Position numbers and translations under genes: made by a program. A stretch of 37,267 bases of DNA, taken from Deltaproteobacteria bacterium. GTDB lineage: Bacteria > Desulfobacterota > GWC2-55-46 > DRQE01. The DNA is taken from positions 1-37,267 of the forward strand of contig WGEY01000034.1 in NCBI GenBank assembly GCA_015492495.1, written 5' to 3'. Shown here one piece after another: positions 3,697-11,364 of the stretch. Every line of letters starts with the position of its first letter. Position 1 is the stretch's first letter. The notes beneath the pieces are model-generated. The model saw nothing but the letters and a program-made list of their open reading frames with translations, had not been told where the DNA came from and searched no databases.

Positions 3697-3736
3697 GTGA
3701 CACGGGTCGTCACAGGCAGGTGCCTCTTACCTGCCT
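3697..3736 (-). terminator. Tandem hairpins at the 3' end of the DHH-CBS-CCA gene
   Basis: AGGCAGGT (3714-3721) pairs with ACCTGCCT (3729-3736) as an 8-bp stem that contains the stop codon of the minus-strand gene. GTGAC (3697-3701) pairs with GTCAC (3709-3713) just beyond it. No U-run follows, so termination is plausible but unproven. Confidence 0.4.
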
Positions 3737-6336
3737 TCATTCGTCGCGAGCCCTCTCACAAACTCTTCTTCGTCCTCCTTCGAGAGGACCTCACCGTCGA
3801 GGCGCTTTTTCAGAAGGGTGTTGAGTACCTCTCCGATGACCGGGCCCTCTTCAAAGCCCATGGCCTTGAGGTCGGCCCCTTTGAGCGCCGTCCTTGCGGA
3901 CCTCAGTTCGGTTACATAGGTTGATACGGCCTTTTTCACCCCTTCGTCGACTGACCTCGCCATGAGATACAGAACCAGCTCAACAGGCAGCGGGTTCAGG
4001 ACCTCGTACAGTTCGCTCCCCTTTCTTACCCTGCCGGAGCCTATGAGCCCGAGGGCCTTCACTCCGTCCCTTCTTCTACGGATCACCTCTATCCGCCTCC
4101 TGCCGGTTATCATGAGCCTCCTGCTGAGCCCATCGAGCTCCTCCTGCGTCAGCTTGTCGGTGAGGGCCAGAAACAATACTATCCAGTCCTCGGCCTTTTC
4201 CTCCGTGTAGAGAAGGCGGTACCAAGCCAGCACCTCCCGTGTCCTTTCGAAGAGGGCGGCGCTTTCTTCGTTCCATTCAAGGTTCTCGTGTATGAGGGAG
4301 AGAAGTCCCAGCTCGTACAGCCTTGCTATGGCAGCCGCAGCACTCTTCTCCAGGAGGATGTTCTTAAGCTCATCACGTATCCTCGCACCGGAGGCCTGGT
4401 GCAGCATCTTGAGCTTTACCGAGTTCTTCATGAGGTTGAGCGTATGTCTGGCGATCCTGAAGCCGAACCGTTCGGAAAACCTTACGGCCCTCAAGGCCCT
4501 TACAGGGTCTTCGACGAAGCTCAGGTTGTGAAGCACCCGGATGGTCTTTTCCTCTATGTCCTTCTGCGCACCGAAGAAGTCTATGAGCTCTCCGAACCTT
4601 TCCGGGTTGAGCGCCACCGCAAGCGTGTTGATGGTGAAGTCACGCCTGTAGAGGTCGAGCTTGAGCGAAGAGAGCTCCACAGTGGGCAGCGCCCCCGGCC
4701 TCTCGTAGTACTCAAGCCTTGCCGTTGCAACGTCGAGCTTGAATCCGTCGGGGAAGACGATGACGGCTGTCTTGAACCTGTCGTGGCTCTTCACCCTGAG
4801 TCCGCGGCCCGCTGCGAATTCGTTGGCGAACCTTATGCCGTCCCCTTCCACGACTATGTCTATATCAAGGTTCTCTCGCCTCAGGATAAGATCCCTTACA
4901 AACCCGCCGACCGCGTAAGCGCTGTAGCCGAGTGATTCGGCCGTGGCGCCTATGTCACGCAGCAGCCTGTAGGCCCACTCGGGAAGCCTTTCCTTCATGA
5001 GGGAACCGACCAGCCTTTTTTTACGCATCTCCCGGGAAGGCCTTTCAGTGAGTTCTTCCTGAAGGAGCTTAAGCATGTCGGTTCTCGTTATCACCCCTAC
5101 TACACGACCTTTGTCCACAACGGGCAGAAGCCTCTGACCGTAGACGCCCACCTTCGTTCGTATCTCCTCGACCGGGGTTCTTGCCTCGACCCAGTCCACC
5201 TCGGTCGTCATGTAATCCCCGGCCTCTTCCTTCCCGAGTCTGTGGTCCAGTGCCCTGTCGACCACCTGCCTGGTTATAACCCCCGCGAGCCTTCCGTCCC
5301 TTACCACGGGCATAGCGTTTATGTTGTAGCGGCGTAGCAGCCGTGCGGCATCGGACAGGGTTGTCTCCGGGGATATGGTTATGGCCGGTGATGACATTAC
5401 CTCAGATGCGGACCTCCTGGGCGCTATCCTTTCCTTGAGGCTCTTAAGCACCTTTTCCCTTGCCTGTATAAGTGTTACACCCTTTAGTGTGGCTGATGCC
5501 GCCTGAGGATGACCGCCTCCGCCGACGCCTTCGGCCACACATCCTGCATCGACCTCAGGTACGGCGCTTCTTATGACCACGTGGACCCTGTCGGCCGTCT
5601 CAACGAGCAGGAAGAGGCAGTCCATGTGTTCCATGTCCATCAGTCTGTGTGCGAGTGTGGCTATATCGTTTTTATACTCCTCAATGGAAAGCATGGCAAC
5701 GACCACGCTGATGCCTCCGATGGTGTAGGTGACCTCGGACTCGATGAGCTTGTTCAGGGCAGCCACTTCCTGGGGGGTGAGTTCTTTTTTGAGGAGCCTC
5801 GTGACGGCCTTGAGGTCCGCACCGCACGAGAGGAGAAATGAAGCCGCCTCGTAGTCTTCCACTGAGGTGGAGGGAAAGCTCAGCGAGCCGGTGTCCTCGT
5901 AGATGCCCGCCATGAGTATAGTGGCCTCTTCCGGTGTTATCTTAAAGGACTTTTCCTTCAGTAGGAGTGTGAGTATTGTCGTCGTTGAGCCATAGGGTCT
6001 TACCACCTCGACCGAGCCCTTTATGTCATCCTCACGAGCCGGGTGGTGGTCGTATATGTGTACGTCAAGCCCCTTGCGGCCTATTATGTCGGCGAAACGC
6101 CCGATCCTTGCGGCCTGCCTTATGTCGACTAGTATGAGCCTCGTTACCCTCTCAAGGTCTATGTCTTTGGCACGCTCTATGGTGTAGGGAAGCCTGAGCG
6201 TCCTCATGGCCGACCTGAGACCCTTTTCAAGTGAGCCGGGGAAGACAAGGGTCGCTTCCGGATAGAGCTTCTTTGCGGCTATCATGGACGCAAGGGTATC
6301 GAAGTCCGCATTGGTATGCGTGGTGATAACCTCCAT
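3727..6336 (-). CDS. DHH phosphoesterase-CBS-tRNA nucleotidyltransferase fusion
   Basis: A 869-residue three-part enzyme. Residues 1-300 are a DHH/DHHA1 phosphoesterase, with NADFD at 9-13, DHH at 96-98 and GGGGHPQAA from 272. Residues about 310-426 are two CBS domains that usually bind adenine nucleotides. The C-terminal half is a class II nucleotidyltransferase of the CCA-adding/poly(A) polymerase family, with GGFVRD at 477-482, metal Asp pair DID at 491-493, RRDFTINTLA near 564 and a helical RNA-binding tail. The likely job is adding or repairing tRNA 3' CCA or A-tailing, coupled to degradation of small RNA or nucleotides. The architecture is known in Geobacter-like bacteria and Aquifex relatives. 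The start at 6336 matches the conserved MEVITTH beginning; a TTG at 6369 is possible but lies upstream of the predicted mRNA start. Confidence 0.88.
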   Translation of the reverse strand: MEVITTHTNADFDTLASMIAAKKLYPEATLVFPGSLEKGLRSAMRTLRLPYTIERAKDIDLERVTRLILVDIRQAARIGRFADIIGRKGLDVHIYDHHPAREDDIKGSVEVVRPYGSTTTILTLLLKEKSFKITPEEATILMAGIYEDTGSLSFPSTSVEDYEAASFLLSCGADLKAVTRLLKKELTPQEVAALNKLIESEVTYTIGGISVVVAMLSIEEYKNDIATLAHRLMDMEHMDCLFLLVETADRVHVVIRSAVPEVDAGCVAEGVGGGGHPQAASATLKGVTLIQAREKVLKSLKERIAPRRSASEVMSSPAITISPETTLSDAARLLRRYNINAMPVVRDGRLAGVITRQVVDRALDHRLGKEEAGDYMTTEVDWVEARTPVEEIRTKVGVYGQRLLPVVDKGRVVGVITRTDMLKLLQEELTERPSREMRKKRLVGSLMKERLPEWAYRLLRDIGATAESLGYSAYAVGGFVRDLILRRENLDIDIVVEGDGIRFANEFAAGRGLRVKSHDRFKTAVIVFPDGFKLDVATARLEYYERPGALPTVELSSLKLDLYRRDFTINTLAVALNPERFGELIDFFGAQKDIEEKTIRVLHNLSFVEDPVRALRAVRFSERFGFRIARHTLNLMKNSVKLKMLHQASGARIRDELKNILLEKSAAAAIARLYELGLLSLIHENLEWNEESAALFERTREVLAWYRLLYTEEKAEDWIVLFLALTDKLTQEELDGLSRRLMITGRRRIEVIRRRRDGVKALGLIGSGRVRKGSELYEVLNPLPVELVLYLMARSVDEGVKKAVSTYVTELRSARTALKGADLKAMGFEEGPVIGEVLNTLLKKRLDGEVLSKEDEEEFVRGLATNEGR

Positions 6337-6344
6337 ACATACGG

Positions 6345-6374
6345 ATATTAGCACAGTTTGCCGTATCAAATCAA
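6345..6374 (-). promoter_or_regulatory. Candidate promoter of the DHH-CBS-CCA gene
   Basis: On the minus strand TTGATT (6374-6369), 18-bp spacer, TAATAT (6350-6345). +1 would fall near 6338, two bases before the ATG at 6336, so the mRNA would be almost leaderless. No Shine-Dalgarno precedes that ATG. Confidence 0.45.
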
Positions 6375-6598: not shown

Positions 6599-9334
6599 AT
6601 GACGGCTTACCACAAAGAGAGGCTTGCCCTCTTCGACCTGCTCGCGAGGGACTGGAAAGGGGTTGTAAACGGCAGGTTCTGGACGCTCGATCCCAGGTCC
6701 TTGAGGTTCAAACACGGAGAGACCCTTACCGAGTTGAGGGTACCCTATCATCTCGGTGCCGAGGATGAGGCGGTGATAGAGAAGGCCGTGGCGGCCCTCG
6801 CCCTCCTCGTCAAGAGGCGCTTTGAAAGGACGGGCGAGGATGAAGCGGTGGAGGTCCCGTCCCGTCTCGATGTCGCCATATCCCAGCCGTTAAGGGAAAA
6901 GACATGTAGAACCGACCTTCTGCTCCATGGCTCCGTCGAGAAGAGGACCGCGACCGACACCCTTCTCACAACACCTTTCATGGACGGCGCCATCCTTACA
7001 AACTGGCTCGGCCCTGATGGGCACGGAAGAGGATTCGTACGCTGGATCTCTGGGCTCATGGAGAAGGCCATGAAGGACGAAGCCGGCAATCCCAAGGGGG
7101 AGAGGACCTCCTACCTGGCCCTGCTATCTGTAATCAACGCCGTAAAGAAGAAAAAGGAGATGCTGAAGGAGTTGAGGATATCCGGCCTCTCGTATGACAA
7201 GCTGGACGCAGCGGTGGGCTTCACCCTCTACGATGCATGCAGGGCGGCGCTCTGGGGGCTCTTCGACAGGTTGAAGACGGAGGCGGTGCCGTACTACAGC
7301 AGGACCTCCGAGGCGGTCGTCAAGACGGCTCTCGGACCGGTGATGTTCCTCGCAATCCCTTCAAACATCATATCAACCTCCCTGAATCCGTACGGTATCA
7401 ACAGGGAGCTCTTCGATTCCATAGAGCCGCTTTTGCCGTCGATGGACGAAGCGTCCTGGGATTCAAGGACAATCATCTCGGAGATGGTGGATAATGTAAA
7501 GAAGGATGCGGGGCTGGCCGAAGAGATCAGGCTGCAAATCAATATCTTGCGTTTCAGGCGACTCGTCCTGGCCTACCTCATGGACTTCGACTCCAAGGGG
7601 ATCGAGGTACACGGCACGTTGCGCGAGATCTACCCCGATGACCGTCGGATCAGGGGTCTTCTTACGGACCACAGGGCTGCAGAGAGGCTCAGGGACCGGC
7701 TGGATGAGATCAGGCAGAGGTTTCCACGGGATACGAAGAGGCTCGGGGCGATAGGGCCTCTGGAGGACTTTCTTGCGGGGCTGCACAGGTCAAGGGGCGG
7801 ATGGTTCAGGAGGCAGTCAAGGGAGGACTCTACTGAGGCCGTCACCGAGTGTATGGAGAGGGCTCTCTCCTTCTGGTTCGATGGATTCGTGGAGAGGTTC
7901 GTAGAGCCGATGAGGCTTGTTTTAGTGGACAGGGGGCTGGAGTATGACGACGCTGTGCTTGCAGAGGAGTACAACAAGGGACGGTTGTATCGTTTTTCCG
8001 CGGACAGCAGGCCGGTCCTGACTGTGCTGGCGGTGGAACACGAGGCCCAGCTCTTCATAGATATGAAGGATTTTACCAGGAGGACCCTCAAGGTCAAGGA
8101 GATAGCCATGGCCGAGTTCATGAAGGAAAACTTCTACAGGCCGATACTGGATGCAGCGGCCCGCCATGGCATGGGGGAGGGGCTCGTGGAGACGGAAGGA
8201 GGGATAAGGCTCAACAGCCTTCCCGGCGATGCCGCCATATTCTCCGGCAGTGTATCAAGGCTTATCTCGCTCGCCCGTGACATACGGTGCATAATACGGC
8301 TTTACCGGCAGAAGCTCGAAAAGAGGCTGCCGCCGGTAGAGGACGAGCTGCTGCTCGGAGACGTACACGACAGGTTCATGGGTCAGAAACAGAGGATCAG
8401 GGAGAAGAGGACCGAGCTTGAAAGGGCCCTTCACAGGGGCGACGAGTCGGCCGGCGCCAGACTTTCTGCGCTGACAAGGGAAGAGCGCCGGCTTGAAAAC
8501 ATTTACCATTACGAGGTGGAAGCGGCCGTCTCCAGGGAGATGGAGGCAGGCCTCTTCATCTCCTACGGTATGAAGGCCGAGACCATGGTGCTCAGGGGAG
8601 GAAAAGGAGGCGGCTGGCCGATCATGGTGGCCATAGGCGAGAAGATAAACGAGGCCGCAAGGGGCACGGACAGGGACCGCAGGGTCAGGGCCAGGCTCGA
8701 GGTGATGCTCGAAAAAGAGCGGCTCGGAACCGGCAGGGCGGATCTTGGCTATCCCTTCGACGTGTATATCGACAGCACCTACAGCATACGTATACCGCCG
8801 GAACTCGAAGAGACCATAGAGGGGCTTATGGAGCGCAGAAGGGACGTGGATATCAGGGCTGCGGCAACAAGGCTCGCCAGGGAGTACTACAACGACCTTG
8901 TGCGTCTTTCAAGGGGCAAGGCCGTGGAGGATCTGGCCCTGCTCGAGTCGACCACGGCCATATACAACAGGGGACAGGCCCTGAGCAGGGAGGCGTTACG
9001 CGCCTACATGGAGGAGACCAGAGGGACGAAGTTCTTCTTCTCGAAGACCGTCTCGGCGGATGAGCTCGACGAACGCATCCTGGAGCAGTTCTACTTCCCC
9101 TCTGAGGTCATGGAGCTTTGGTTCAGCTACGAGCTGCGGGGCAGGACAGAGGTGGTCGAAGCGTTCCGCAGGTGCGGAGAGGTGGTCTTCAAGGGATTCG
9201 AGTCCAGCGGTCCCACGGTCGTGTACGAGATACTGGATACAGAGGGTGACTTCTTCAAGGCGCTCGAGGCGCATCACCTGAAAAGGTGGATCGAGGAGGC
9301 AAAGGAGGAGAAGGCGGATGAGTTCGTGCCATGA
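6599..9334 (+). CDS. Large protein with a divergent class III nucleotide-cyclase-like domain
   Basis: A 911-residue cytoplasmic protein with no signal peptide or membrane segment. Residues 1-480 are helical and unassigned. Residues about 475-710 resemble a class III adenylyl/guanylyl cyclase domain. FIDMKDFT (486-493) matches the first metal-Asp motif, LPGDAAIF the second (Asp544), and IGEKINEAAR carries Asn684 and Arg688 with the four-residue spacing of the catalytic Asn-Arg pair. The usual purine-specifying Lys and Asp positions read Ser and Val, and about 130 residues, partly coiled coil, separate the second and third motifs. It may therefore be a non-canonical cyclase or a nucleotide sensor. 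The last 200 residues are unassigned. The start could be the TTG at 6593 or the ATG at 6599; neither has a Shine-Dalgarno. A TATCAT hexamer (6588-6593) would place +1 at the ATG. Confidence 0.6.
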   Translation: MTAYHKERLALFDLLARDWKGVVNGRFWTLDPRSLRFKHGETLTELRVPYHLGAEDEAVIEKAVAALALLVKRRFERTGEDEAVEVPSRLDVAISQPLREKTCRTDLLLHGSVEKRTATDTLLTTPFMDGAILTNWLGPDGHGRGFVRWISGLMEKAMKDEAGNPKGERTSYLALLSVINAVKKKKEMLKELRISGLSYDKLDAAVGFTLYDACRAALWGLFDRLKTEAVPYYSRTSEAVVKTALGPVMFLAIPSNIISTSLNPYGINRELFDSIEPLLPSMDEASWDSRTIISEMVDNVKKDAGLAEEIRLQINILRFRRLVLAYLMDFDSKGIEVHGTLREIYPDDRRIRGLLTDHRAAERLRDRLDEIRQRFPRDTKRLGAIGPLEDFLAGLHRSRGGWFRRQSREDSTEAVTECMERALSFWFDGFVERFVEPMRLVLVDRGLEYDDAVLAEEYNKGRLYRFSADSRPVLTVLAVEHEAQLFIDMKDFTRRTLKVKEIAMAEFMKENFYRPILDAAARHGMGEGLVETEGGIRLNSLPGDAAIFSGSVSRLISLARDIRCIIRLYRQKLEKRLPPVEDELLLGDVHDRFMGQKQRIREKRTELERALHRGDESAGARLSALTREERRLENIYHYEVEAAVSREMEAGLFISYGMKAETMVLRGGKGGGWPIMVAIGEKINEAARGTDRDRRVRARLEVMLEKERLGTGRADLGYPFDVYIDSTYSIRIPPELEETIEGLMERRRDVDIRAAATRLAREYYNDLVRLSRGKAVEDLALLESTTAIYNRGQALSREALRAYMEETRGTKFFFSKTVSADELDERILEQFYFPSEVMELWFSYELRGRTEVVEAFRRCGEVVFKGFESSGPTVVYEILDTEGDFFKALEAHHLKRWIEEAKEEKADEFVP

Positions 9335-9442: not shown

Positions 9443-10345
9443 TCAGGCGTGCCCTTTTCGTCCTTTTGCCGCCTGCGCCCCGCCTCCCCGCAGCACCTCG
9501 TTCATGGATCCGGTTCTATAGCCCTCGAGGTCCAGAGTGACATAGGGAAAGCCTATCTTCTTGAACTCCTCCACGATCGAGCCCCTGAGCCCGGCATCCA
9601 GAAGACGCCCTATGGACGACTGCTCCACCTCGATCCTGGCCACCTCGCCGTGGTACCGCACCCTTACCTGCTCAAGGCCGAGTCCTTTCAGGTATTCCTC
9701 GCACCTCTTCACCTTTTCTAGCCTCTCCTCGGTTATGCGGGTGCCGTACGGAAAGCGGGACGAGAGGCATGCGAGGTTTGGTTTCTTCCACGTGGAGAGC
9801 GCCATCTCCCTGCTCAGAAGCCTTATCTCCTTCTTGGTGAGGCCCGCCTCCACGAGAGGGCTCCTTACGCCGAGCTCCTCCGCAGCCGCCTTGCCCGGCC
9901 GGTGGTCTGCCAGATCATCGGCGTTGGTGCCGTCCACTACGTATTCAAGCCCCAACTCATCGGCCTTCCTGCGGCATATCTCGAATAGCTCGCTCTTGCA
10001 GTAGTAGCACCTGTTTTCCGGGTTATCGGCGAAGTTGGGGATCAGAAGCTCGTTTGAATCCACTATGATGTGTTCTGCGCCGAACTCCTTGGCCAGCCTT
10101 TTCGCCTCCTCGAGTTCGCTCTCGAGGTAGGTGGGTGAGGTGGCGGTGAGCGCTACGGCGCGGTCTTTGAGGGTCTGGTTTGCCACCTTGAGCAGGAAGG
10201 TCGAGTCCACCCCTCCTGAGAATGCAACAAGTACAGAGCCCATATTCCTAAGGATCTCCCTGAGAAGGTCGAGCTTCTCGGCTACACTCTTTGCCTCGTC
10301 TCTCGCCGGTGCATCGGCCGTGTTACGGCCTTTTTCGCTCAGCAT
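9443..10345 (-). CDS. larE: LarE, ATP-dependent sulfur transferase for the nickel-pincer cofactor
   Basis: A 300-residue PP-loop ATPase. In the Lar pathway LarE adenylates the dicarboxylated pyridinium mononucleotide made by LarB and transfers sulfur to it. SGGVDS at 43-48 is the PP-loop; DGTNADDL, RPGKAAAEELGVRSPL and KPNLACLSSRFPYG are typical of LarE. Cysteines at 113 and 116 (RCYYC) and 193 (LACLSS) form a triad, suggesting the iron-sulfur type of LarE that can recycle sulfur rather than sacrifice a single Cys; that subtype call is inference. AGGAG precedes the ATG at 10345, and the start overlaps the end of the upstream PP-loop gene by seven bases. LarA, LarB and LarC are not in the window. 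Confidence 0.85.
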   Translation of the reverse strand: MLSEKGRNTADAPARDEAKSVAEKLDLLREILRNMGSVLVAFSGGVDSTFLLKVANQTLKDRAVALTATSPTYLESELEEAKRLAKEFGAEHIIVDSNELLIPNFADNPENRCYYCKSELFEICRRKADELGLEYVVDGTNADDLADHRPGKAAAEELGVRSPLVEAGLTKKEIRLLSREMALSTWKKPNLACLSSRFPYGTRITEERLEKVKRCEEYLKGLGLEQVRVRYHGEVARIEVEQSSIGRLLDAGLRGSIVEEFKKIGFPYVTLDLEGYRTGSMNEVLRGGGAQAAKGRKGHA

Positions 10346-11364
10346 ACCCTTATCTCCTCTATGGTTCCGTCATCAGGAGGGTTTGCAACCTCCAGCGAGG
10401 TCGTTTTTCCCCCACGGGTGACGAGGACCATTCCCCTTTTCTCCGTGTTCCTGGAAGAGTACCTCAGTATGAGCCTTGCGGCCATCTCGACTGTGCCGTT
10501 TGTCGCTCCTCCACAGACAAGCGCCACCGGGCCGGGGAAGCCTTCGGGCTCGAGGACGGTATCGCCCTCCTGGATCAGGTTCCTGAGCCTTACATTCTCG
10601 GATTCGTTCCTGCTCACGATGAGCTTCGTTCCGTGGTATCGGAAGTGTCTTCCGAGCTTGAGGGCCTGAAGATCCTTCATGGTGACGCTCTCCTTGTGGT
10701 CGAGTAGATCCCTTACCTTCTTGGAAAAGATCTTGTCCGTGAGTAGGCATCCCCCGGATGGGCACGGATAGTCCCCTATGTTGAGATCCTCTGCAAGCTC
10801 CATCTGCGGCCTTCTCGTCCTGCCGAGCATAGAAAGGAGCCTTTCCCTGTCCACCATACCGGTCCTCTCTGGTATGGTCGGTTCAAGGTGCTTTGCGCAG
10901 AGCGGCCTCAGTATGCGTCCCTCGAGGCCGCTCTCCCTCTCTATTATGCGGAAGGTGTCCCTTCTCTGGCTCATCGGTCTCTGGCCCAGGACCTCGCCGG
11001 TTATTGCGAATTCGGCCCCTATCTCTTCCATGTACTCCTTTGCCCTCTTGAACATGTAGATGCGGCAGTCCACGCAGGGGTTTATACCCTTTCCATAGCC
11101 GTGTCGGGGGTTTCTTACGATATCGATGTAATCGAGCCCCTTAAGCAGGACCTTTATGGGTATGCCGAACGCCTCGGCGACCCTCCTTGCCTCGCTCCTG
11201 CACCCGCCTTGCTCTCCCTTCTTGTGCTTTCCCCCGGAATCACACGTGCAGAAGGCAGAGGTGAAGTTCAGCGCATGGACCTCGATGCCCTGATCGAGTA
11301 TGAGCTTCACCGCAAGCGTTGAATCCAGCCCGCCCGAAAGAAGTGCTACAGCCCTCCTTGCCAT
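10339..11364 (-). CDS. MnmA/ThiI-like PP-loop ATPase, probable RNA thiolation enzyme
   Basis: A 341-residue cytoplasmic enzyme. SGGLDS at 10-15 is the PP-loop that adenylates a substrate. A cysteine pair NPCVDC (97-100), the GEVLGQRPMSQ segment and PCPSGGC (201-206) are features of a family annotated as tRNA 2-thiouridylate (MnmA-like) or ThiI-like proteins, often linked to DUF814/NFACT-R. FCTC at 38-41 and Cys55 add further thiols, so an iron-sulfur cluster or persulfide relay is possible. Residues 210-341 form a separate C-terminal domain of strands and turns. The exact substrate is not determined by the sequence. GGAGG lies ten bases before the ATG, and a promoter with a perfect TATAAT drives this gene and larE as an operon. 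Confidence 0.75.
   Translation of the reverse strand: MARRAVALLSGGLDSTLAVKLILDQGIEVHALNFTSAFCTCDSGGKHKKGEQGGCRSEARRVAEAFGIPIKVLLKGLDYIDIVRNPRHGYGKGINPCVDCRIYMFKRAKEYMEEIGAEFAITGEVLGQRPMSQRRDTFRIIERESGLEGRILRPLCAKHLEPTIPERTGMVDRERLLSMLGRTRRPQMELAEDLNIGDYPCPSGGCLLTDKIFSKKVRDLLDHKESVTMKDLQALKLGRHFRYHGTKLIVSRNESENVRLRNLIQEGDTVLEPEGFPGPVALVCGGATNGTVEMAARLILRYSSRNTEKRGMVLVTRGGKTTSLEVANPPDDGTIEEIRVC

Follow-up and report, generated by a model that had tools for sequence, protein, structure and literature searches.

Does the gene at positions 6599..9334 (+ strand) of the 37,267-nucleotide stretch of DNA analysed here (the window) encode a cryptic class III nucleotide cyclase, as an earlier note on this DNA had proposed, and if so, is the product likely to be an active enzyme? 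The reading frame starts at ATG 6599 (alternative start, TTG 6593), codes to 9331 and ends with TGA at 9332–9334, giving a protein of 911 residues. We favour, with a probability of about 0.6, a soluble, vertically inherited enzyme of the class III nucleotidyl cyclase fold, with altered base selection and a helical regulatory N-terminal half, from a family that lies outside the libraries searched. The highest hydropathy over 19 residues was 1.55, and the protein had no hydrophobic stretch of sufficient length or strength for a membrane helix; it is therefore probably cytosolic.

The three motifs on which the proposal rested are all present in the translation, in the expected order. FIDMKDFT (residues 486–493; 8054..8077, +) holds the predicted first metal-binding Asp, D488. 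LPGDAAIF, part of SLPGDAAIFS (residues 540–549; 8216..8245, +), holds the predicted second metal-binding Asp, D544, 56 residues after the first, together with the putative base-reading residue S540. INEAAR lies within residues 677–692 (VAIGEKINEAARGTDR; 8627..8674, +), which include the putative base-reading V677 and the putative transition-state residues N684 and R688. A pattern requiring the three motifs in order matched 82 family open reading frames (ORFs) and 23 canonical cyclase ORFs from the fetched loci, yet none of the ~1,150 other ORFs of the fetched DNA, which served as background, and none of 18,200 residue-shuffled family proteins.

Searches of sequence libraries did not reach the known cyclases. 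Pfam, NCBIfam and PADLOC gave no credible match for the 911-residue protein, nor did a PDB sequence search, even with a profile built from 54 members; the N-terminal half (residues 1–470) likewise matched no known family and had no credible PDB sequence match. The earlier note had suggested a profile search against the class III cyclase family, but PF00211 produced no significant match, and no PDB cyclase was reached by sequence either. DUF2652 (PF10851) was matched by one family member only, weakly and below cut-off (E = 0.013–0.022). Matches of the C-terminal part to Outer surface protein A (E = 1e-4) were set aside as reflecting repeated beta-hairpins, each match consisting of two weak stretches.

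Structure prediction was more informative. With 54 homologues, AF2 gave a confident predicted model (mean pLDDT 85.5, pTM 0.78); from the single sequence, its output was uninformative (pLDDT 36.5). The predicted N-terminal half (residues 1–470; 6599..8008, +) is all-helical, with pLDDT mostly ~90, and ends in a strongly conserved linker just ahead of the core, GRLYRFSADS (residues 461–470; 7979..8008, +), in which G461, Y464 and D469 are invariant. The first part of the core (residues 481–576; 8039..8326, +) is strand-helix-helix-strand-strand-helix by AF2 secondary structure and Foldseek (strand 481–488; helices 490–498 and 501–522; strands 537–540 and 545–550; helix 552–576). An inserted helical hairpin follows (residues 577–648; 8327..8542, +; helices 586–612 and 617–645), and then the second part of the core (residues 652–730; 8552..8788, +), which AF2 and Foldseek resolve into three strands, the putative catalytic helix and a further strand (strands 652–658, 661–665 and 675–679; helices 681–689 and 694–711; strand 722–730). 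In this model, the order of elements is that of class III cyclases with a hairpin inserted. A C-terminal alpha/beta segment (residues 782–878; 8942..9232, +) has predicted strands at 850–862 and 873–878. This segment contains an IYNxGxALS motif (within residues 782–799), invariant or nearly so, which includes N790, G792 and A799.

Compared with the PDB by Foldseek, the full-length model had best matches that were almost all class III cyclases. These filled the first 38 places, with probabilities of 0.72–1.00 (most 1.00), a best E value of 3.8e-3 (none below 0.001) and target-normalised TM-scores of up to ~0.54; they included Rv1900c (0.54), Cya2 and the uridylate cyclase 8jsz. Among viral structures, the one notable match was a Faunusvirus cyclase-domain protein (probability 1.00, E = 0.39), with no other strong match. 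In hhalign, the three motifs stood in register with those of canonical cyclases of the same clade (P = 0.007–0.009), a score that is weak alone, since it was exceeded by 1 of 40 column permutations. In a further match, hhalign paired residues 856–878 (FRRCGEVVFKGFESSGPTVVYEIL) with the canonical cyclase end hairpin (P = 0.0094), and the C-terminal stretch GEVxFKGFExxxPTxVYEI resembles that hairpin, so that the cyclase-like domain probably reaches ~880. The fold expected by the earlier note for residues 460–720 thus stood, but its boundaries did not: from the AF2 model and hhalign, we infer a domain from ~481 to ~880 that carries two insertions.

The long, partly coiled insertion described between the second and third motifs is present, and proved to be a predicted helical hairpin of variable length, spanning 12–173 residues across the family. 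Families f23 and f26 reached ~172 residues, whereas f34, f47 and one member of f8 had 12–21. The member whose insertion is smallest has a distance of 78 from the second Asp to the Asn, compared with 74–78 in canonical cyclases. The distance between the two Asp residues was 49–57 (median 56) compared with 44 in canonical enzymes. Together with the helical N-terminal half, the hairpin is probably a regulatory, dimer-shaping part of the protein, and the all-helical half itself is probably its regulatory or sensing part.

Homologues (829–1078 residues long) were found in 61 genomes among the 147 relatives searched, normally as one copy per genome, and a profile run against 395 genomes of the phylum yielded 29; the family search covered this phylum plus one pattern-based scan of genome contigs. 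The ~60 single-copy homologues came from relatives filed as Deltaproteobacteria; the two that bear names, likewise so classified, are genomes from groundwater. We examined conservation in an alignment of 54 full-length members and in an extended set, with counts taken over the members covering the sites. D488, D544, N684 and V677 were invariant in the extended alignment, and R688 was Arg in 62 of 63 members and Lys in the other. E685, G689 and R692 were likewise invariant in both alignments, as were N790 and W897 among the 54 full-length members. Conservation of the catalytic residues held while identity to the window protein dropped to ~26%. Neither of the outcomes that the earlier note had named as refuting was obtained: the confident model did not lack the cyclase fold, and the homologues kept the two Asp residues and the Asn/Arg pair. 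The changes reported at the two base-reading positions, S540 (four residues before D544, −4) and V677 (seven before N684, −7), were confirmed, with one refinement: across the family, −4 is mostly Asn (56 members, with Ser in 7), and Ser occurs mainly in the window's own lineage. With Asn or Ser at −4 and always Val at −7, the base-reading positions have changed uniformly rather than drifted. Canonical class III cyclases of the same clade had Lys at −4 in 30 of 30 cases and Thr or Ala at −7.

The family resembles class III cyclases (PF00211; Rv1900c, Cya2 and the bacterial light-regulated adenylyl cyclases) in its predicted order of strands and helices, its two metal-binding Asp residues and Asn-x3-Arg, its near-canonical Asp–Asn spacing once the insertion is removed and its KG-type end hairpin. 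It differs from them in the lack of a profile match, the 12–173-residue helical insertion, the ~470-residue helical N-terminal half and the extra C-terminal segment. By analogy with class III enzymes, the protein would cyclise a nucleoside triphosphate (NTP) as a head-to-tail homodimer. D488 and D544 would bind two metal ions and the NTP phosphates, and the other subunit would contribute N684 and R688 to steady the transition state, with residues 540 and 677 turned towards the base. Which base is read would depend on the last pair. Adenine and guanine are read by enzymes with Lys/Asp or Glu/Cys, respectively (PMC4215837, PMC4886424). Adenylyl cyclases have Lys at −4 and Asp or Thr at −7, and guanylyl cyclases Glu at −4 and Cys, Ser or Gly at the second position; the window family, with Asn or Ser and Val, has neither set. 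With these substitutions at the adenine-reading positions (Asn/Ser for Lys, Val for Asp/Thr), base selection probably differs from that of the known adenylyl and guanylyl cyclases, and, with the purine-reading residues absent, no substrate can be assigned. Pyrimidine cyclases are known to differ at the Lys position, their pocket using other combinations (PMC11224242), and by this analogy selection may possibly be relaxed or directed to pyrimidines.

The genes around the family gave hints of a metabolic setting. In the window, the gene faces LarE, an ATP-dependent sacrificial sulfur transferase (9443..10345, −; TIGR00268, E = 3.5e-100), as its convergent neighbour, and LarE adjoins a ThiI-like PP-loop protein with an NFACT-R RNA-binding domain (10339..11364, −; below the ThiI equivalog cut-off). 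The divergent neighbour (3727..6369, −) encodes an 880-residue fusion of DHH/DHHA1, two CBS and polyA/CCA polymerase parts with an RNA-binding domain, and this fusion is kept as a neighbour within the window's taxonomic family. LarE often adjoins the cyclase-like gene across several families. However, LarE-type matches occurred in 146 of the 147 genomes (128 above cut-off), with or without the cyclase-like gene; because LarE is nearly universal, adjacency alone says little about the functional link that we considered. Elsewhere, in f11 (L037–L042), the gene lies downstream of PyrR, PyrB, PyrC and PurQ in the same orientation, separated from PurQ by short gaps; it follows PurC and PurQ in f9 and MTA phosphorylase in f34, and is divergent from LarB in f23. 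These neighbours hint at nucleotide metabolism.

Such arrangements would also suit a pseudo-enzyme, in which the cyclase-fold domain binds a metal–NTP complex without cyclising it and informs the helical N-terminal half of the state of the nucleotide. A sensor of this kind would fit the position of the gene after nucleotide-synthesis genes in two families (f11, f9), and a loss of catalysis would fit the loss of the purine-reading residues and the longer first core loop (median Asp–Asp distance 56 compared with 44 in canonical enzymes). We consider it a serious but clearly less probable reading, since pseudo-enzymes typically lose some of their catalytic residues, whereas here all four are retained across deep divergence; an inactive protein would be a rare case of a pseudo-cyclase with its catalytic set complete. 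The intact catalytic residues favour an enzyme over a pseudo-enzyme, and the missing adenine and guanine contacts, set beside the Lys-position changes of pyrimidine cyclases, would favour an active enzyme with altered selection.

An enzyme of another kind is improbable, though some features would accommodate it. The cyclase fold is common to other palm-type nucleotide enzymes, and the invariant E685, G689, R692, N790 and W897 lie outside the canonical cyclase signature, so that the domain might instead synthesise oligonucleotides or cyclic dinucleotides, or transfer a nucleoside monophosphate to another acceptor. However, Asn-x3-Arg, the transition-state signature of cyclases, is retained, no GGDEF or Cas10 structure was among the 50 Foldseek matches listed, and the GGDEF motif is absent from the translation. 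Chance resemblance in a protein of some other fold is very improbable: the failure to match Pfam, NCBIfam or PDB profiles and the weak hhalign score would suit it, but the predicted fold and Foldseek ranking largely refute it, and the invariance within the family and the absence of the ordered motifs from the other ORFs and shuffled proteins also speak against it.

Returning to the altered-selection cyclase, the closest known parallels, besides the class III adenylyl and guanylyl cyclases, are the Pycsar PycC cyclases and the DUF2652 proteins. PycC enzymes share the class III fold with altered base-reading residues (PMC11224242), and Foldseek listed both 8jsz and 6yii, the latter cited in the same paper. 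At −4, however, EaPycC has Arg and AnPycC probably Lys (counted from residue numbers, PMC11224242), whereas the window family has Asn or Ser. The family also differs in its setting: it is a conserved chromosomal gene rather than part of a defence island, PADLOC found no Pycsar match for the 911-residue protein and three neighbours, and no effector (PycTM or PycTIR) was recognised in the surveyed neighbourhoods. The DUF2652 family (PF10851) is likewise cryptic and class III-like, and its base-reading pairs too are atypical (PMC4886424). Its members average ~250 residues, have Lys–Glu or Glu–Lys/Arg pairs and often lack the Asn (PMC4886424), unlike the window family. More tentatively, and with the odds against it, the family may be a new class III cyclase type with an Asn/Ser–Val base-reading pair that makes a cyclic nucleotide instead of, or as well as, cAMP and cGMP, as a housekeeping, chromosomally inherited second messenger outside phage defence. 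The class III fold would in any case extend to a family undetected by the libraries searched, with a consistent but different base-reading pair, and an active member would provide a direct test of a role for cyclic pyrimidine or other nucleotides beyond phage defence.

Other cyclases and possible receptors in the same genomes bear on this activity. The window genome has a canonical class III cyclase as well, encoded separately (G000:C36). Genomes G002, G007, G009, G013, G015, G050 and G053 have the cyclase-like gene and proteins that bind cyclic nucleoside monophosphates (cNMPs), and searches of them detected none of the PF00211, class I and CYTH cyclases, several of the genomes being incomplete. 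The presence of cNMP-binding proteins without another detected cyclase fits real cyclase activity, but the argument is weak because some genomes are incomplete and many of these proteins, found in 59 of 59 genomes searched, may be FNR-like.

Inheritance appears to be vertical, since the gene tree tracks taxonomic families closely and no plasmid, phage or viral contig yielded a relative; an origin from mobile elements or phages was for the same reason unsupported. In two genomes (G019 and G313), the homologue is broken up over separate open frames (L048, 6980–9699; L116 and L117), reflecting either a frameshift or an assembly error.
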